Source: Verrucomicrobiaceae bacterium (lineage in GTDB: Bacteria; Verrucomicrobiota; Verrucomicrobiia; Verrucomicrobiales; Akkermansiaceae). Taken from it: a DNA stretch of 33,649 bases. The position numbers and the translations under genes are program-made. The stretch lies in the NCBI GenBank assembly GCA_027487355.1, contig JAIYDT010000248.1, positions 1-33,649 on the forward strand, in the 5' to 3' direction. Below are positions 3,906 through 13,101 of this stretch, one piece after another; the stretch's first letter is position 1, and each line of letters begins with the position of its first letter. The notes below the pieces were generated by a model. That model worked only from the letters and a program-made list of their open reading frames with translations, did no database searches and was not told where the DNA came from.

Positions 3906-4367
3906 TCAATTGGAGCCCTTGAGCATCCGCGCGGCCCGAAGTGCCCCCACTCCTCCGTGCAGCGCGTACACGTCCTTCGTCAGATCGAACTTGAGGATCT
4001 TCTGAACGACCTGGTGACTCAGTCCGCAGTTGCCTTCGCCACAATAAACAATGACGGCGGGCGGCCCCTCCATGAGATGATTCATGGCATCTTCCTCGAA
4101 CTTGAACGCGTCCTCAGCAGGATCGAGGCTCCAAAGGATCGATCCCGGCACGCCATCCGCCTGCCATTCCTTGCGGGTTCTCGCATCCACCCAAAGGACC
4201 TTGCCCTTCCATCTTGCCACGACCTGGTCGAGGCAGATTTCATGGGCCTTCAAGTTGGACGGATCGCAGGAGACACGGCGTTCCGGTGGACCGGAGATGC
4301 GGAAATGGATCGCAGAAGCGGTCAGGGAGATCCCGGTCAGGACCGCCAGTTGCCCGATCAGTCTCAT
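3906..4367 (-). CDS. Rhodanese-like domain protein with N-terminal membrane anchor/signal
   Basis: MRLIGQLAVLTGISLTASAIHF hydrophobic N-terminus; VLWVDARTRKEWQADGVPGSI and VIVYCGEGNCGLSHQVVQKI (active-site Cys loop). Start overlaps the upstream stop (ATGA). Confidence 0.82.
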   Translation of the reverse strand: MRLIGQLAVLTGISLTASAIHFRISGPPERRVSCDPSNLKAHEICLDQVVARWKGKVLWVDARTRKEWQADGVPGSILWSLDPAEDAFKFEEDAMNHLMEGPPAVIVYCGEGNCGLSHQVVQKILKFDLTKDVYALHGGVGALRAARMLKGSN

Positions 4368-5059
4368 GGCTGGGTCTTGGCCGCTTCCGAAGGCAGGGCG
4401 CGACGGATGCTGGCGAAGGCCTGCTTGACCTTGTGGCGCTCGATCTTGCAATCCGTATCAATCCTGAAAACGCCGAGCCCGGAAACCGAGCTGTCCTTTG
4501 GAGCGACCACCAGTTCATAGCTCAGGCCTTCCTTAAGGGTCTTGAGCTCCACGGTGAAATTGTCGTTCGAGTTTGAAACGGACCGGATGTTGACCTTCTC
4601 CTCGCCCTCGACGGTAATCTTGATGGTCTGAGGGCTTGGAGGCGCGCCGACATCCCATTTCACGGTCTTGGGTTCAATCTTGATGACTTCCGGAATGTGG
4701 GCCTTGACCAGCAGGGTGACCGAAGGGGTGCTCTCGGGATCCGCATCCAGCCAAATGGCGATCGACTTCTCGACATCCCCCGAGTAGTTGCTCATGTCGA
4801 ACTTCGCCCGGATCACCCCGGCCTCGCCCGGCTGATAGACCAGCTTGCCGCCAGCCACTCCGACCGCCATGCAGGCGCATCCGGCATCGTAACGCTTGAT
4901 CTCGACCGCCTTGCCCGTCTTGTTGGTGAAGGGAAAATCGGCGACGATTTCGGTGGCATCAGCCGGGGCATTGATCGCTTTGGTGGACTCCTGGAAGTCG
5001 AGCCCGGCGGCGGAAAGCGCGGCTGTGAGAATCGACCAGAGAAAGAGCGTGGTTTTCAT
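4364..5059 (-). CDS. DUF1573 domain-containing exported protein
   Basis: Signal peptide MKTTLFLWSILTAALSAAG; ADFPFTNKTGKAVEIKRYDAGCACMAV...YQPGEAGVIRAKFDMSNYSG is typical of DUF1573. Confidence 0.8.
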   Translation of the reverse strand: MKTTLFLWSILTAALSAAGLDFQESTKAINAPADATEIVADFPFTNKTGKAVEIKRYDAGCACMAVGVAGGKLVYQPGEAGVIRAKFDMSNYSGDVEKSIAIWLDADPESTPSVTLLVKAHIPEVIKIEPKTVKWDVGAPPSPQTIKITVEGEEKVNIRSVSNSNDNFTVELKTLKEGLSYELVVAPKDSSVSGLGVFRIDTDCKIERHKVKQAFASIRRALPSEAAKTQP

Positions 5060-5065
5060 GGGAAA

Positions 5066-5569
5066 CTAAGAGCGTGGTTTGCTGGCGGAGGCAAGGGAAA
5101 CGGAAATGATCAGCCGTCCGCCACGCCAAGCCGGGCCCAGCACATAAAGCGGACGCTCGGAGGAAAGCTCGGCATCGGTCTTGAGGATCTTCTTGCGGCT
5201 GAGCCAGAACTCCAGACCGAGCCTCGCGGAGGACTTGGAAGGACGGCTCTGGGCTTCGAAGCGCACCAGAACCTCGTCCGAGGCCCCCAGCGGCTGCGCC
5301 CAGTTCTCATAGCTGCGGTAGAGGGGCTTGGTGTCCACCCCGATTTCCCGGTAGTGGGCAAACTTCAGCCGGGCCTCGCTTTGGAGTCGTTCGGTGATTG
5401 CCTTGGAGACCGGCTTGGCTTTGTCACCCGCGGTGGCGACGTCCCCATCGGTCGCGTGAATCACCCGAACGACGATGGAACCCACGACCTCCTTGCCGGG
5501 GTCCGAGTCCTGTCCTCTGACCTGCAACACCAGAAGCAGTCCAAGGGCGCATCCGGCGAGAAATCTCAT
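5066..5569 (-). CDS. Exported hypothetical protein in the sigma-factor operon
   Basis: Signal peptide MRFLAGCALGLLLVLQVRG; no family recognised. Start overlaps the preceding stop by 4 nt (ATGA). Confidence 0.65.
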   Translation of the reverse strand: MRFLAGCALGLLLVLQVRGQDSDPGKEVVGSIVVRVIHATDGDVATAGDKAKPVSKAITERLQSEARLKFAHYREIGVDTKPLYRSYENWAQPLGASDEVLVRFEAQSRPSKSSARLGLEFWLSRKKILKTDAELSSERPLYVLGPAWRGGRLIISVSLASASKPRS

Positions 5570-6165
5570 TGGGTGACTTCCAAAACGGGCTTCTCCTGCT
5601 TGGCGGCGGTTGACTCCACTTCACTGTCGGAAGGGATGGCTGCCGTCTCGCGGAAGTCCAGGGCGTCCGAAAACGCGGGAACTCCATCGAGCACGATCAC
5701 CGTCGCATCCGCAGTCCGGCTGGCGAAATAATCCGCCCTCACCCCGGTCTCCGGGGTGTACACCACGGGTGATGAGCTGCTGACCTCTATGACTGAAGCA
5801 GGCGCAACCGTCATGCTCGTCCGGGTGCCCATCCAGAACGCCAGCGTCATGCCTGCAGCGGCGGCGGCCGGCATGAACCAGTTCGACCGCCACCAGGAAG
5901 CCCTCGACTCGACCGCCTTCACCGGAACCTTTTCCAATTCGGAAATGGCCGCTGAAATCCGGCTGTTGAAGAACTCCGGATAAGGGGGCTCCTCCACGTG
6001 TGGGAGTGCCGAAGAAATCATCTGCCGCCAGTCACGGACCGCCTGCCGGGCCGCGAGCTGATCCGGCTGCGCAGCCGCCCATGCTTCCACGGACGCGAAG
6101 GCATCCCCTTCCAATTCATCGTCCAGCCACAGGGCCAGCGTTTCGTCATCGGGTTTCGTATTCAT
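5566..6165 (-). CDS. Anti-sigma-factor-like membrane protein
   Basis: N-terminal DDETLALWLDDELEGDAFASVEAWAAAQP, an anti-sigma-like acidic helical region, then TM segment WFMPAAAAAGMTLAFWMG; directly follows and overlaps the ECF sigma gene. Confidence 0.68.
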   Translation of the reverse strand: MNTKPDDETLALWLDDELEGDAFASVEAWAAAQPDQLAARQAVRDWRQMISSALPHVEEPPYPEFFNSRISAAISELEKVPVKAVESRASWWRSNWFMPAAAAAGMTLAFWMGTRTSMTVAPASVIEVSSSSPVVYTPETGVRADYFASRTADATVIVLDGVPAFSDALDFRETAAIPSDSEVESTAAKQEKPVLEVTQ

Positions 6166-6820
6166 CCTTGAGTAGGGCTTGGAGTTTCTGACGGGCGTAA
6201 AACAGACGGCTCATGACCGTGCCGATCGTGCACCCCATGGCGTCGGCGATTTCCTTATACGACAGACCCTGAACATCTTTCAAGATCACTGACTCACGAT
6301 GTTCAGCGGAAAGCTTGAAAAGCGCGGCTTGGATCTTCATCCGCAGCTCGCCGTGCTCCATCGATGTGTCGGGAGATTCCGCGCCCGAAGGGGCGGTCGA
6401 AGCCAGCGGGTCGATCTGATCACGGTCGAAGATCTCGTCGTTGAACTCACCCGCGCTGTCGATCTTCCGCTTGCGGGTCCAGTCATAGACGACGTTGTGG
6501 GCGATCCGGAACAACCAGGTCGAGAAGCGGGCCTTTGCCTCGAAGCGCGGCAACGCCTGCCACGCCTTCACGAAGACGTCCTGGGAAAGGTCCCAGGCGT
6601 CGGCTTCGTGGTGGATCATGTTGCGGACCATGGCAAAAATTCTTCCCCGGTGCCGGATCACGAGTTCGTCGTAGGCCCGAAGGTCGCCTTTCTGGGCCTG
6701 TTTGACGAGCTGTGCATCGTCATCCGGCTCCCCTTTGGCGCGGGACTCGACGGGCTCGGATGGCCCCGTCAGAGGATTCGACGGATCCGGGCGGACTTTA
6801 TTCATGGGAAAGACATCCAT
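6146..6820 (-). CDS. ECF-type RNA polymerase sigma factor (sigma-70 family)
   Basis: Region 2: DELVIRHRGRIFAMVRNMIHHEADAWDLSQDVFVKAWQALPRFEAKARFSTWLFRIAHNVVYDWTRKRK. Region 4: LSAEHRESVILKDVQGLSYKEIADAMGCTIGTVMSRLFYARQKLQALL. Confidence 0.93.
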   Translation of the reverse strand: MDVFPMNKVRPDPSNPLTGPSEPVESRAKGEPDDDAQLVKQAQKGDLRAYDELVIRHRGRIFAMVRNMIHHEADAWDLSQDVFVKAWQALPRFEAKARFSTWLFRIAHNVVYDWTRKRKIDSAGEFNDEIFDRDQIDPLASTAPSGAESPDTSMEHGELRMKIQAALFKLSAEHRESVILKDVQGLSYKEIADAMGCTIGTVMSRLFYARQKLQALLKDEYETR

Positions 6821-6920: not shown

Positions 6921-8201
6921 TCAGGCAATGCCGATCTCAGAGGGTTCCGGGAAGTTTCCATGTCCAGGAATCCGTCGCGCCAATGAAGGGGTCGGATCTC
7001 CCCCACCCGCCTTGATCGCAGCAGCCACCCCGGCAGCCTGTCCAGTGGCGAAACAAGTGCCCATGACCCGGATCGAGGCCTGGGCCTCGTGGTCCACGGA
7101 AATGCAGCGGCCAGCGACGAAGAAATTGTCGTGATCGGGAATCCTCAGACAATCGAATGGAATCCCGGTCGGCCGATCCTCCACCGGAAACCGCCATTTC
7201 GGGCCGCGGGTGTTTTCACGAAGCTCCATCGGCCAGGTCGCCAGCCCGATCTCGTCCGCGAACCGCGTTCCTGCCTCGATCTGTGCTCCGGTCAAACACG
7301 CCCGTCCCACCCAGCGACGGCTCTCGCGGATGCCAGCACGCGCGGGCCATTGGGAAATGAACGCCGCCCTCCATTCCGGATCCATTTCCCGCAGGCAGGC
7401 CACCACTCCAGAGGCCACGCGACGTCCCTCGGCTTCCAGGGCACTGAGCCCTACGGGATCGAGCGGATCATAGATCGAACCACTTTCCTCACCCGCAAGA
7501 TCGAGCGTGCCGAACAGCTCACCGGGACGACCGGAGGGGCGGAAGGAAAGCCCGAGAGCCGCCTTGGAAAGAATGCCCGAGCGGATTCCCTCGACCAGCA
7601 TTCCTGCCAACTGAAGCCGACGCTCGTCAGGGAAAGATCTTACTCCCTGGATTCCGAAGACATAAGCTGGACGCTGGAGTCTTGGGGCGACCTCATGCGC
7701 CGCTCCGATCCACGGAGCCGTCACCGCATCCCCTGAGGCATCGATGATCACCGTGCTGAGTGTTTTTCCCAACGAACCACGGCAAGACCAGTCGATCTCC
7801 CATCGCCCTTCATTCTTCCGAACTCCAATGACTTCGGTGTGCCATTGGACCACGAGGGAAGACTCGGCCTTCACCAACTCGTCGGCGATCCGGACAAAAT
7901 CCGCCGGGTGCTGGGGCAACACGTCGAGCCGGCCCATCCTGATCGGCCCCAGCCCCGTGGTAGCGATCATCCGCTCCGCCATTTCGCTGGGAAAGCCGAG
8001 GTTCGCCAGCTCGGCACCAGGTCCGCTTTTCAGGAGATAGAGCCCGCAGAAGGTGTGCACCAGCGAGGCGGTTCCCATGCCGCCGAGAAAGCCCTGACGC
8101 TCGAGAAGCATCACCCGCGCGCCTTGACGCGCCGCCATGACGGCCGCAGCCAAGCCCGCACTGCCTCCGCCGATCACGGCCACATCGACGTCCCGGATCA
8201 T
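6921..8201 (-). CDS. FAD-dependent oxidoreductase (FAD_oxidored-like)
   Basis: DVAVIGGGSAGLAAAVMAARQGARVMLLERQGFLGGMGTASLV dinucleotide fold; C-terminal FFVAGRCISVDHEAQASIRVMGTCFATGQAAGVAAAIKA. Confidence 0.88.
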   Translation of the reverse strand: MIRDVDVAVIGGGSAGLAAAVMAARQGARVMLLERQGFLGGMGTASLVHTFCGLYLLKSGPGAELANLGFPSEMAERMIATTGLGPIRMGRLDVLPQHPADFVRIADELVKAESSLVVQWHTEVIGVRKNEGRWEIDWSCRGSLGKTLSTVIIDASGDAVTAPWIGAAHEVAPRLQRPAYVFGIQGVRSFPDERRLQLAGMLVEGIRSGILSKAALGLSFRPSGRPGELFGTLDLAGEESGSIYDPLDPVGLSALEAEGRRVASGVVACLREMDPEWRAAFISQWPARAGIRESRRWVGRACLTGAQIEAGTRFADEIGLATWPMELRENTRGPKWRFPVEDRPTGIPFDCLRIPDHDNFFVAGRCISVDHEAQASIRVMGTCFATGQAAGVAAAIKAGGGDPTPSLARRIPGHGNFPEPSEIGIA

Positions 8202-8446
8202 GCGCGGCGTTCGTCGATCAGGGCTGCGAGCGATTCCGCCGTGCCGAGATTGTCCTTTGTTAGATCGACTGCCTGCAATTGCGCCCCGAAGCGTTCCTCA
8301 GCTGCGACCACGAGCTGCATCACCGCCATGGAGTCGAGTCCGGCCAGGAAGAGATCATCCTGGACCGAGAACCCCTCTTCCAGCATCAGGATCTCCTCGC
8401 TCCGCAACCAGCCAATCACCTTGATGCCATCAACTTCCTCGCTCAT
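8198..8446 (-). CDS. Acyl carrier protein
   Basis: 82 aa with phosphopantetheine site LAGLDSMAVMQLVVAAEERFG. Confidence 0.83.
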   Translation of the reverse strand: MSEEVDGIKVIGWLRSEEILMLEEGFSVQDDLFLAGLDSMAVMQLVVAAEERFGAQLQAVDLTKDNLGTAESLAALIDERRA

Positions 8447-8467
8447 GAGAGACCAGACCCTGTGACT

Positions 8468-9325
8468 TCAGCGGGTTGCCCGCAAGCTGGAAAGCCCCGG
8501 ATCCGAGCTGAGGCTGGCCGCCGTGAGCGCACCTGCATCGATGAGGCTCCGTGCGGTCCTCCACTGGAAGATGCCAGGGTGAACCGTCCGCGTTTCCAGG
8601 AACACGACCTTCTTGCCGGACAAGGCCGCCAGCGATTTCCGCTTCTCGAAAAGTTCCGCCGCTGCCACCGAATGGGCGGTCGCCGCGACACTGGTGGCAT
8701 TCCACCAAGGGATCAGCCGGCGGCTGGTATGATGTCGGATGTAGTGAACGAGGATCGTGTGAATCGAGGGATCGTCGAGCCAATGCTCAAACGGGGTCTC
8801 GTTGGCCACTCCTCCGTCCACATAGTCCTCCCCTTCCACCGTCTGGACCGTGAAAAGCAGCGGCACCGCCAGGCTGGCAACCATGAAATCCACCAGTGAA
8901 CCCTCCTTTTTCAGCTGCATGCAGTTCTGGCTGAGATTGGAAACCGCCAGTTCCAGCGTCGGATCCCGAAGCTCCTCGATGCGTCGATTCCCGATCAGGC
9001 GGATCAGAAATTTCCGAAGGCGGGAACCCGAGAGAACCCCGCTCGGCCCCAAGTTCAGGAACAGCAGATGAATCCGAAAAAGCGAAAAGAGATCGAGGAA
9101 CGATCGTTTGAATCGATGGGATAAAATGAGCGATTCCAACTGCTCGCCACGGATTCCAGCCGCCCACAAGCCGCCGCTCAGGGCTCCTGCCGAAGCCCCG
9201 GCAATTCTCCCTGGGCGTAGGCCCAAGCGATCCAGTCCATTGAGAAAGCCCGAATGTGCATGATAACCACAAAATGACGAGGCCAGGCAAACCGCCAGCC
9301 CTGGATCTCCTTGGTGTCCGCTCAT
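8468..9325 (-). CDS. Patatin-like phospholipase/acyl hydrolase
   Basis: GFLNGLDRLGLRPGRIAGASAGALSGGLWAAG (GxSxG) and EDYVDGGVANETPFE (Asp of the catalytic dyad, DGG). Start MSGHQG at 9325 overlaps the upstream stop. Confidence 0.82.
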   Translation of the reverse strand: MSGHQGDPGLAVCLASSFCGYHAHSGFLNGLDRLGLRPGRIAGASAGALSGGLWAAGIRGEQLESLILSHRFKRSFLDLFSLFRIHLLFLNLGPSGVLSGSRLRKFLIRLIGNRRIEELRDPTLELAVSNLSQNCMQLKKEGSLVDFMVASLAVPLLFTVQTVEGEDYVDGGVANETPFEHWLDDPSIHTILVHYIRHHTSRRLIPWWNATSVAATAHSVAAAELFEKRKSLAALSGKKVVFLETRTVHPGIFQWRTARSLIDAGALTAASLSSDPGLSSLRATR

Positions 9326-10377
9326 GTTTCCTGCTCCGTTCTCTGGTCCACGCCTTCCAACTCCGCGACCGTGACCCGGTCCCTTTTCCTCAGAAAGAGG
9401 AGTCCCCCGATCAAAGCCCAGAATGTGCTGCACGCAAATCCAGCCAGCGAAGCCGCCACGGAAATCTCCGGCGGTGTTCCTGCTAGATCCCTCATCAGAA
9501 TCTCGAAAAGCTTCTCACGGACTCCCAGGCCACCCACCGAGATGGGAAGCGAGCTGACCGAGTCGATCACCGGCATGGCTGAAAGCACCGTGCCCGCCGA
9601 GGCCGTGCCTCCGACCGCGCGCAGCCCGCACCAGAAGGTCAGGAAGTAGGCCAGCAGCATCACAAAGGAAACGCCCACCCCGGCCAGCGCCAGCGGCCAC
9701 TTTCTACGATAGACATCGTAGGTCTCCGGCACCCTCCTCAGCAGCTCCCATTTCCACTCCCGCCCGTTTGCATGAATCCGCCGGTGGACCGGGGGACAGG
9801 CCGCCAGGAAACATAGCAACACCAAACCTAGCCCTCCGGAAAGATAAACCCACGCGAACTGGATCACGCCCTTGCCCAGGTGGCTCTGGTTCGCCAGCGC
9901 ATCAAACTTCGCCACCGAAACGATGAAGAACATCCCGGCCAGCGACACCATCCCGGCCAGATGATCGACCATTACCGCCATCGTGACCGCCAGTTTCCGC
10001 TGCGGATGCTCACGGATCAACAACAGCACCCGCGCGGCATCCCCGCCGATGCCACCGATCGAGAGCAGGTTGAAAAGATTGCCGATCAGCGTCAGCTCGG
10101 TCGTGCGGTGCATCCCGGGGTCCACTCCCTGTGCGAGGAGGAACAGCCTCCAGCGCAGCGCTGTCAGCATCACGGTCAGTCCGGCCATCACCACACCACC
10201 AACCATCCAGCGGTAATCCACCGCCCCCGATCGGAAAAAAACGGAATCACGAAGATCCACCTGCGACAGCGCCCAGGCGAGGCAACTGCCGGTGAGCACG
10301 AGCTTCAGCAGAAAAACCAGGACCTTTTTCCACATGCCGGAAGATGCTTTGTCATCAGACATGTGGACCGGGATCAA
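9322..10377 (-). CDS. Lysylphosphatidylglycerol synthase TM-region/UPF0104-like membrane protein (flippase-like)
   Basis: Multi-TM protein with LFNLLSIGGIGGDAARVLLLIREHPQRKLAVTMAVMVDHLAGM and SVSSLPISVGGLGVREKLFEILM, typical of the LPG_synthase_TM family. Confidence 0.82.
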   Translation of the reverse strand: MIPVHMSDDKASSGMWKKVLVFLLKLVLTGSCLAWALSQVDLRDSVFFRSGAVDYRWMVGGVVMAGLTVMLTALRWRLFLLAQGVDPGMHRTTELTLIGNLFNLLSIGGIGGDAARVLLLIREHPQRKLAVTMAVMVDHLAGMVSLAGMFFIVSVAKFDALANQSHLGKGVIQFAWVYLSGGLGLVLLCFLAACPPVHRRIHANGREWKWELLRRVPETYDVYRRKWPLALAGVGVSFVMLLAYFLTFWCGLRAVGGTASAGTVLSAMPVIDSVSSLPISVGGLGVREKLFEILMRDLAGTPPEISVAASLAGFACSTFWALIGGLLFLRKRDRVTVAELEGVDQRTEQET

Positions 10378-10634
10378 GCAGGCTTCTCGATCTCACGAGC
10401 GATGGTGTCCACGCTCTCCAGAACGCCCTTGGCCTCATCCGAGTTGCCGATCTTCAGACCAAAATGCTTGTCCAGAGCCACCACCAGTTGAAGTGCGTCC
10501 ACAGAATCAAGGCCCAAGCCGCCCGCTCCGAAGATCGGGACCGTGTCCCCGATGGATTCCGCGTCCTGATCGAGCATCAACTCCTCCACCATCACCTCCT
10601 TGATTTTCAGACGCAGCTCGGGACCCTGGGACAT
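10374..10634 (-). CDS. Acyl carrier protein
   Basis: 86 aa with FGAGGLGLDSVDALQLVVALDKHFGLKI phosphopantetheine site. Confidence 0.88.
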   Translation of the reverse strand: MSQGPELRLKIKEVMVEELMLDQDAESIGDTVPIFGAGGLGLDSVDALQLVVALDKHFGLKIGNSDEAKGVLESVDTIAREIEKPA

Positions 10635-10653
10635 TTGGTTCGTTCGTTTCTTG

Positions 10654-11379
10654 TCAGAAGATTCCGCCGTCGATCTTCAAGGCGGAACCTGTGACATACC
10701 CCGCATCCTGACAAGCGAGAAAGAACACTGCCGAGGCCACCTCCTCCGGCTTTCCGAAACGCCGCATCGGGATGCCCTGTCTGGCCACCTTCCTCGCCTC
10801 CTCATCCATGCCGGAAAGGGCCTCGGTCTCGATGTAGCCCGGAAGGAGGCAGTTCACCGTGATCCCTGCCCTGGCGACCTCCTTGGCCATGGTTCTGGAA
10901 AAGGCCACCACCCCGGCCTTCGCCGCCGCATAGTTCGTCTGGCCCATCGGCGGCAGGATCGCACTAAGCGAGGCAATGTTGACGATCCGACCGAACCGCT
11001 GGCGCATCATCGGTGTGACCACCGCCCGGCAGCCATGGAAGACCGAGTCGAGATTCGAGGAAATCACCTGATGCCAGGACTCCGCAGGCATCGCCGCCAG
11101 CAGATGATCGCGATGCAGTCCGGCATTGTTGACCAGCGCGTCGAGCCGACCATCGGCATCCACAATCGTGGAAACCGCCAGCTCCCAGGCCTTCGCATCG
11201 GTCACATCCAGATCCACCAGCCGACAGCGCCCGGAGAACTCCGCTGCCAGCGCCTCCGCCGCCTCACGGTTCGAACGCACGCCCAGCCAGACGCGACACT
11301 CCGGATCCTTTTCCAGGAAATACCGCCCGATCCCACGCCCGAGCCCCCCATTTCCACCTGTGATCAAGATGCTTCGCAC
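10654..11379 (-). CDS. fabG: 3-oxoacyl-ACP reductase-type short-chain dehydrogenase
   Basis: SILITGGNGGLGRGIGRYF (Rossmann), LVNNAGLHRD, Ser...TNYAAAKAGVVAFSRTMAKEVARAGITVNCLLPGYIETE (YxxxK), YVTGSALKIDGG. GTG start. Confidence 0.9.
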   Translation of the reverse strand: MRSILITGGNGGLGRGIGRYFLEKDPECRVWLGVRSNREAAEALAAEFSGRCRLVDLDVTDAKAWELAVSTIVDADGRLDALVNNAGLHRDHLLAAMPAESWHQVISSNLDSVFHGCRAVVTPMMRQRFGRIVNIASLSAILPPMGQTNYAAAKAGVVAFSRTMAKEVARAGITVNCLLPGYIETEALSGMDEEARKVARQGIPMRRFGKPEEVASAVFFLACQDAGYVTGSALKIDGGIF

Positions 11380-11475: not shown

Positions 11476-13101
11476 ATGAAAACCCTCATCCTCCTGCTCA
11501 CCAGCCTTTTCGGCCACGCGGCCGCGATGGAGCACGATGTCGTGATCTACGGCGGCACCTCGGCCGCCGTGATCGCCGCCGTGCAGGTCACGAAGATGGG
11601 AAAATCCGTCGTCATCGTCTGCCCGGAAAAGCACCTCGGCGGACTCAGCAGCGGCGGGCTTGGCTTCACCGATACCGGCGACAAGTCGGTCATCGGCGGA
11701 CTCGCCCGGGACTTTTATCACCGCATCTGGCAGCACTACGACCAGCCAGGAGCCTGGGTCCAGCAGAAGAAGGAAGACTACGGCAATGTCGGCCAAGGCA
11801 CGCCCGCCATGGACGGAGCCAACCGCACGATGTGGATCTTCGAACCCCACGTCGCCGAGCAGGTCTTCGAGGGATATGTGAAGGAGTTTAAGATCCCCGT
11901 CGTCCGCGATGAATGGCTTGATCGGCAGAAGGGTGTGAGGATGGAGGGCACGCGGATCGTTTCGATCACGATGCAAAGCGGGAAGACCTACTCCGGAAAG
12001 AAGTTCCTCGACGCCACCTACGAGGGCGACCTCATGGCCGCCGCCGGAGTCGACTACCACGTCGGGCGCGAGGCGAACTCCGTCCATGGCGAAACGCACA
12101 ACGGCAACCAGGTCGGCGTCCTCCATCATGCCCATCACTTCGGCGCGGTGAAATCCCCCATCAGCCCCTACGTCATCCCTGGTGATCCCAACAGCGGGCT
12201 TGTCGCCGGCGTGCAAGCCGAGCCTCCCGGCGTCCGCGGTGAAGGCGACAAGCGGATCCAAGCCTACTGCTTTCGCATGTGCCTCACCAACGATCCCGCC
12301 AACCGGCTGCCCTTTGAGAAACCCGAGGGCTACGATCCGGCGCACTATGAACTCCTCGCCCGCGTCTTCGAGGGCGGCTGGAAAGGCTTCTTCTCCAAGT
12401 TCGATCCCCTCCCCAACCACAAGACCGACACCAACAACCACGGTCCTTTCAGCTTCGACTTCATCGGGGGAAACTGGGATTATCCGGAAGCCTCGCATGT
12501 GAGACGCCAGGAAATCATCAAGGCCCACGAGACCTATCAAAAGGGCCTGCTCTGGTTTGTGGCCACCGATCCCCACGTGCCGCAGGAAGTCCGCTCGAAG
12601 ATGCAGGCCTGGGGATTGCCGAAGGATGAGTTCGCCGACAACGGCCATTGGTCACGCCAACTCTACATCCGCGAGGCGCGGCGCATGGTCGGCCGTTTCG
12701 TCATGACCGAAAACGAGCTGACGAGGAAAAAGCCAACCCCTGAGTCGGTCGGCATGGGCAGTTACACCATGGACTCCCACAACGTCCGCCGTTACGTCAC
12801 GGAAAAGGGCAACGTTCAGAACGAGGGTGACATCGGCGTGGGCCTGAAGCCCTATCAGATCTCCTATGGCTCGCTGGTTCCGAAGAAAGGGCAGGCCGAC
12901 AACCTCCTCGTTCCGGTCTGTCTTTCCAGCTCCCACATCGCCTACGGCAGCATCCGCATGGAGCCGGTCTTCATGATCCTCTCCCAAAGCGCCGCCACCG
13001 CAGCCGTGCTCTCCATCGAGAAGGGAATCAGCGTTCAGGACCTTCCCTACGTCGATCTCCAATCCCGTTTGAGAGCGGATGGTCAGGTTCTCGAAAATTG
13101 A
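11476..13101 (+). CDS. Exported FAD-dependent oxidoreductase
   Basis: Signal-like MKTLILLLTSLFGHAAA, then HDVVIYGGTSAAVIAAVQVTKMGKSVVIVCPEKHLGGLSSGGLGFTDTGD; C-terminal LLVPVCLSSSHIAYGSIRMEPVFMILSQSAATAAVLSIEKG. Start trimmed from the 10600 ORF. Confidence 0.86.
   Translation: MKTLILLLTSLFGHAAAMEHDVVIYGGTSAAVIAAVQVTKMGKSVVIVCPEKHLGGLSSGGLGFTDTGDKSVIGGLARDFYHRIWQHYDQPGAWVQQKKEDYGNVGQGTPAMDGANRTMWIFEPHVAEQVFEGYVKEFKIPVVRDEWLDRQKGVRMEGTRIVSITMQSGKTYSGKKFLDATYEGDLMAAAGVDYHVGREANSVHGETHNGNQVGVLHHAHHFGAVKSPISPYVIPGDPNSGLVAGVQAEPPGVRGEGDKRIQAYCFRMCLTNDPANRLPFEKPEGYDPAHYELLARVFEGGWKGFFSKFDPLPNHKTDTNNHGPFSFDFIGGNWDYPEASHVRRQEIIKAHETYQKGLLWFVATDPHVPQEVRSKMQAWGLPKDEFADNGHWSRQLYIREARRMVGRFVMTENELTRKKPTPESVGMGSYTMDSHNVRRYVTEKGNVQNEGDIGVGLKPYQISYGSLVPKKGQADNLLVPVCLSSSHIAYGSIRMEPVFMILSQSAATAAVLSIEKGISVQDLPYVDLQSRLRADGQVLEN

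Follow-up and report, generated by a model that had tools for sequence, protein, structure and literature searches.

A stretch of 33,649 nucleotides (the whole of it is called the window here) from contig JAIYDT010000248.1 of a Verrucomicrobiaceae bacterium (assembly GCA_027487355.1) carries, on its minus strand between positions 6,921 and 11,379, an operon of six genes in the order fabG, acyl carrier protein (ACP1), flippase, patatin, a second ACP (ACP2) and a flavin adenine dinucleotide (FAD)-dependent oxidoreductase (FAO). This order had been predicted from the letters of the sequence, and all six open reading frames are indeed present with clear Pfam matches. We consider that the operon probably represents a single module of a type II polyketide synthase pathway whose genes are dispersed and which would make an aryl-polyene-like pigment lipid in Verrucomicrobiota.

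The first gene (10654..11379) starts with GTG and encodes a 241-aa 3-oxoacyl-ACP reductase of FabG type (short-chain dehydrogenase/reductase, SDR; adh_short_C2 4.6e-54), which scores 243.8 bits against TIGR01830, under the cutoff of 297.75, and whose intact Ser-Tyr-Lys motif is kept in 44 of 44 FabG family members. ACP1 (10374..10634, 86 aa; PP-binding 6.5e-7; 41 bits against PRK09184, under the cutoff of 70) is the candidate carrier of the polyene chain and ACP2 (8198..8446, 82 aa; PP-binding 1.2e-9) the second carrier, paired with FAO; the G-L-D-S motif is intact in both. Between them lie a flippase-like membrane protein of LPG_synthase_TM/TIGR00374 type (9322..10362; PF03706 1.3e-32) and a patatin-like acyl hydrolase/transferase of 285 aa (8468..9325; PF01734 1.8e-21) with a GASAG nucleophile elbow and a DGG motif. 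The flippase is not fused to an MprF-type synthase domain, PF03706 at residues 23-323 being the sole Pfam match in its 351-aa open reading frame. FAO itself (6921..8201, 426 aa) belongs to PF12831 (FAD_oxidored, 1.1e-75). Of three ATGA junctions claimed between neighboring genes, those at 9322-9325 and 8198-8201 are such overlaps, while the one at 10374-10377 reads TTGA. Overlap at this third junction is doubtful: a flippase start at ATG 10362, leaving a gap of ca. 11 bases, appears more likely than one at the possible TTG 10377, as in a near-identical relative (L032; G, L and C denote genomes, loci and contigs, respectively). The patatin starts at ATG 9325, and not at the GTG upstream, in an ATGA overlap with the flippase stop.

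The patatin belongs to a subfamily in which the oxyanion motif GGGxRG is replaced throughout by SSFxG(Y/F)xxHxGF or close variants (e.g., at window 9260-9325). Its nearest solved structure is PlpD (PDB 5fqu), with which the Ser and Asp motifs align; unlike PlpD, which retains GGGxRG, the window protein has no autotransporter domain within its 285 aa. The flippase-patatin pair was also found apart from ACP1 (G141, G293, and G039 (C24)), and the two may therefore act as a unit.

Conservation and co-inheritance of the modules

The same six-gene order recurs in the near relatives G002 and G023, at 84-99% protein identity, and also outside the family, in G123 (L133/L208), a recurrence that exceeds chance. 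When the gene neighborhoods were checked, as the original prediction had proposed, FabG, ACP1, flippase and patatin emerged as a conserved block, FabG-ACP1-flippase (often with patatin) being kept through most of the loci examined and the flippase directly following ACP1 in most of them. ACP2 and FAO constitute a separate conserved pair, adjacent in most FAO loci of Luteolibacter/Haloferula type.

Across 291 genomes of the window's order, ACP1 was found in 116 and a short AMP-ligase (LIG) in 115; both occur in 111, ACP1 only in five, LIG only in four and neither in 171 (Fisher p 2e-68, a value that is overstated because the genomes are related). Within the window's own genus alone, ten genomes have ACP1 and LIG, one has only ACP1 and 16 have neither, and in 22 genomes the two genes share one contig, 3.3-9.6 kb apart. 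ACP1 is also present in 85 of the 88 flippase-positive genomes, in 75 of the 78 with FAO and in 70 of the 75 with the patatin; FAO is absent from 41 of the 116 ACP1 genomes. The scattering of homologous genes in relatives, which had been named as an argument against a dedicated pathway on ACP-bound acyl chains, is seen in part: the modules lie apart in relatives, yet they are co-inherited, and the idea of such a pathway is borne out by this co-inheritance and by the conserved block and pair.

Ketosynthase and further pathway genes outside the window

No ketosynthase (KS), acyltransferase or phosphopantetheinyl transferase lies in the window, just as had been noted. KS genes are present on other contigs of the genome, and a single AcpS was found in it. 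In a genome of the same family (G192), a single stretch (L062) unites genes for a methyltransferase (MT), GT2, a lysophospholipid acyltransferase (LPLAT), a patatin (PAT), a FabZ-like dehydratase (DH), LIG, KS, a chain-length-factor-like KS (CLF), FabG, ACP1, the flippase (LPG), FAO and ACP2. Contig C390 of the own genome holds MT-GT2-LPLAT-DH-LIG-KS in the order seen in L062, at 40-58% identity to it, and KS-CLF-FabG-ACP1 are contiguous in L062, L065, L072, L077, and L088. The catalytic residues of the KS are present (NACASG ... HGTGT ... GH; Cys and His motifs), and its KS-like partner is devoid of the Cys/His motifs, as expected for a chain-length factor. From the missing KS it had been inferred that the operon must borrow from primary fatty acid synthesis (FAS) or do something other than elongation, a conclusion that finds no support, as dedicated KS, CLF, DH and LIG genes accompany the operon in relatives. 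A side branch of primary FAS would have no dedicated condensing enzyme, yet a dedicated KS goes along with LIG and ACP1 in relatives, and with LIG on C390. The missing KS reflects the dispersal of genes, not a different chemistry.

A third KS of the own genome (C508) was rejected as part of the pathway, its surroundings being BioB-like/aminotransferase genes. In Haloferula-type loci (L103 3474-8290, L105 10186-15027), the genes between KS-CLF and LIG encode an AcrB-type resistance-nodulation-division (RND) pump, an adaptor-like protein and a regulator resembling TetR, a set for which pigment export is a possible role.

The ACP2-FAO pair has partners of its own, i.e., a second AMP-ligase (ADOM), a PF04820 halogenase-like flavoprotein (HAL) and a condensation-like HxxxDG enzyme (CDOM). 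In L126/L166, L130, L160, L174, L179, L183, L186, and L197, the genes run ACP2, CDOM, FAO, ADOM, and then, in most, HAL. The own genome has ADOM and HAL on C212 (L225) and C233 (L226), two contigs that share 119 bases at their ends, within ADOM, i.e., an assembly break within the pathway; no CDOM was found in this genome. ADOM has similarity to aryl and acyl ligases of known structure (PDB). FAO shows 43 invariant columns over 50 homologues, and its AlphaFold model (pLDDT 93.7) has the fold of flavoprotein monooxygenases, halogenases and amine oxidases without a close solved relative; the structure search returned remote matches only (TM about 0.3-0.5, 10-17% identity), from which, therefore, no substrate can be inferred. 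A 549-aa protein of L071, considered as an ACP2-FAO fusion, was rejected as such, since Pfam and alignment identify it as ACP2 fused to CDOM.

It could be argued that ACP2-FAO, with ADOM, HAL and CDOM, constitutes a separate small-molecule pathway that lies beside fabG-ACP1-flippase-patatin merely by chance in this lineage, as ACP2-FAO is usually unlinked to ACP1 and FAO is missing from so many ACP1 genomes. We regard this as rather unlikely, given that nearly all FAO genomes also have ACP1, that the window order is found again in another family (L208), and that ACP2-FAO adjoins KS-CLF in two loci (L149 and L151, the latter of Luteolibacter marinus), has KS, CLF and LIG close by in L213, and is part of the cluster itself in L062 and L167.

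In ACP2 loci of Prosthecobacter type (L130 9495-12480 and similar ones), two further genes are recurrent, i.e., an upstream one for a 712-aa MFS/spermidine-synthase-like fusion and one for a xylose-isomerase-like protein.

Likeness to aryl polyene clusters and a proposed route

Profiles built from these gene families were matched to the ape proteins of the aryl polyene (APE) cluster of E. coli Nissle 1917. The ACP1 family profile matches ApeE (1.5e-16), GT2 matches ApeJ (2e-69), LPLAT matches ApeD (1e-41) and LIG matches ApeH (8e-9), and it is these ACP, LPLAT, GT2 and LIG matches that, at the level of sequence, carry the argument for APE likeness. The reductase (KR, i.e., FabG) also matches ApeQ (3e-51), an unspecific match; KR and KS matches say little alone because they would be obtained with any FabG or FabF. 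The earlier remark that this is not a standard aryl polyene cluster thus applies to the fragment in view only: ACP1, LIG, KR, LPLAT and GT2 have matches among the E. coli APE proteins, and the whole gene set resembles this described class of biosynthetic gene clusters (BGCs), a resemblance that had been thought to tell against a novel pathway and that is seen in part. Shared with the E. coli cluster are two ACPs, an ACP-ligase, a KS with a Cys-less partner, a KR, a FabZ-like DH, an LPLAT, a GT2 and an S-adenosylmethionine-dependent methyltransferase. Unlike it, the genes of the own genome are spread over several loci and the KS is nearer to FabF, and the apparent additions comprise flippase, patatin and the ACP2/FAO arm (with HAL), the last having its own ligase, ADOM. 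No match to ApeA, ApeG or ApeN came from these gene families, and an ApeK-type thioesterase is not in the cluster. The predicted pathway would work like an aryl polyene cluster and resembles one in content, a likeness that stops short of establishing full class membership.

Export genes may add to this likeness in some relatives. MMPL and LolA, which form the export pair in the APE cluster apeA-R of E. coli (PMC8253772), are found by Pfam next to ACP2-FAO-ADOM in Chthoniobacter-type loci (L167, L213); a phmmer query with ApeM gave no match, though Pfam MMPL is present in both. In the own genome, an MMPL fragment on C239 is ca. 30% identical to the MMPL of L160/L167.

Several observations weigh against an aryl-polyene-like pathway. 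The profile matches of MT to ApeB (3e-5) and of DH to ApeI (2.5e-4) are weak. The KS profile scores the own FabF (313 bits) above ApeR (255) and ApeO (203), and the CLF profile gives no match to ApeC among the E. coli Nissle ape proteins, so orthology of KS and CLF to ApeO and ApeC is unsupported; nor did a PDB search single out the KS as an aryl polyene KS, its best matches being FabF. CLF is unseen in the own genome because C390 ends inside the KS. Patatin, flippase and FAO, and likewise HAL, are without counterparts among the E. coli APE proteins. An aromatic ammonia lyase (PF00221) was sought in the own genome and not found, which leaves the aryl starter unproven. Moreover, antiSMASH listed no arylpolyene in the yellow Luteolibacter soli (PMC11427321), a species not checked for the genes described here, and the yellow color of such bacteria could stem from carotenoids instead.

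We nevertheless postulate an aryl-polyene-like route in which LIG on C390, an ApeH-like enzyme, would load an aromatic starter onto ACP1. The KS with its Cys-less CLF would then elongate the chain, the window FabG would reduce each keto group and DH would remove water, giving a conjugated polyene. On the other carrier, ADOM would load ACP2 and FAO may oxidize or desaturate the bound acyl group, which HAL may hydroxylate or halogenate and which, in some lineages, CDOM may transfer. The patatin could release the finished chain from its ACP or pass it to a lipid or sugar acceptor, while LPLAT and GT2 would build a glycolipid anchor and MT would decorate the aryl head. Finally, the LPG_synthase_TM protein would flip the product across the inner membrane; the predicted movement of a lipid across the membrane is plausible as a translocation step. 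More tentatively, the product could be a two-carrier hybrid pigment lipid, with the aryl polyene made on ACP1 and a second acid, loaded by ADOM onto ACP2, oxidized by FAO and modified by HAL, the two arms being joined on a glycolipid by the patatin or CDOM and the flippase exporting the whole in place of, or in addition to, the MMPL/Lol route.

The operon might instead serve a pathway on acyl-ACP that makes no polyene, e.g., a specialized membrane lipid derived from primary FAS intermediates, whereby FabG and ACP1 would tune a 3-hydroxyacyl chain, the patatin transfer it and the flippase move the lipid. In many Prosthecobacter-type genomes fabG-ACP1-flippase-patatin do stand alone, far from KS and LIG, and an ornithine-lipid ACP model matches both ACPs, albeit under its cutoff. 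We still find this unlikely, owing to the near-perfect co-occurrence of ACP1 and LIG and to the linkage of ACP1 on one contig with LIG, KS, CLF or DH in 22 genomes; in addition, ACP1 resembles ApeE, whereas the ACP1 profile fails to match the own primary-type ACP beside fabF (C57) at E<1.

The flexirubin clusters of Bacteroidota combine the aryl polyene machinery with a halogenase-like flavoprotein. A flexirubin/dialkylresorcinol-type pathway, in which the same machinery would yield a product esterified to a resorcinol with an aryl head modified by HAL, is unlikely here: the window FabG comes near the flexirubin SDR model FlxB (206.6 bits, cutoff 340) and halogenase-like flavoproteins stand beside ACP1 in many relatives, but no gene like the resorcinol-forming DarA/DarB was identified among the annotated neighbors (a genome-wide search was not made), and the presence of GT2, LPLAT, MMPL and LolA speaks for anchoring on a glycolipid and for APE-like export.

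Distribution, color and flanking genes

FAO homologues in this context occur in Luteolibacter, Haloferula, Prosthecobacter, Brevifollis and Chthoniobacter-type Verrucomicrobiota, and in one short contig binned as Nitrospirota. The latter (L161, 6 kb) carries FAO (48% identity), ADOM and HAL, and may represent misbinning or transfer. The genome of Luteolibacter pohnpeiensis carries FAO, ACP1, LIG and flippase genes; this species has a pale yellow color, and yellow to pale yellow tones are recorded for further Luteolibacter species (PMC11427321). The predicted pathway offers a concrete genetic candidate for a yellow pigment of Luteolibacter and relatives, which are yellow bacteria from soil and water. 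The yellow Oceaniferula flavus (Verrucomicrobiota) has an arylpolyene BGC predicted by antiSMASH (PMC9865893), a likeness that consists of the same phylum, yellow colonies and the arylpolyene call. In the library searched, we found no paper in which an aryl polyene is combined with a patatin. It appears that an aryl-polyene-like pathway can be split into separately placed modules and still be co-inherited, and cluster-based BGC finders may miss such cases. Bacterial gene clusters of the aryl polyene family are very widespread, and the additional genes seen here (flippase, patatin, ACP2/FAO arm) suggest release, tailoring and export steps that would be new to them.

Directly downstream of FAO, window positions 3906-6820 hold genes for an extracytoplasmic function (ECF) sigma factor (6146..6820, minus strand; Sigma70_r2/r4_2), an anti-sigma factor-like protein as its partner (5566..6165, minus strand; assigned from synteny and from NF052375 at 2.9e-8, under cutoff), a 167-aa protein, a DUF1573 protein and a 153-aa protein. 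Since a homologue of the sigma factor follows FAO in 13 loci, in ten of them together with the anti-sigma gene, this set may be the regulator of ACP2-FAO. On the other side of the operon (11476-13101), a second, longer PF12831 protein (541 aa) is encoded divergently from fabG and is conserved there in G002 and G023; it aligns with FAO over a short stretch only, at 24-26% identity.

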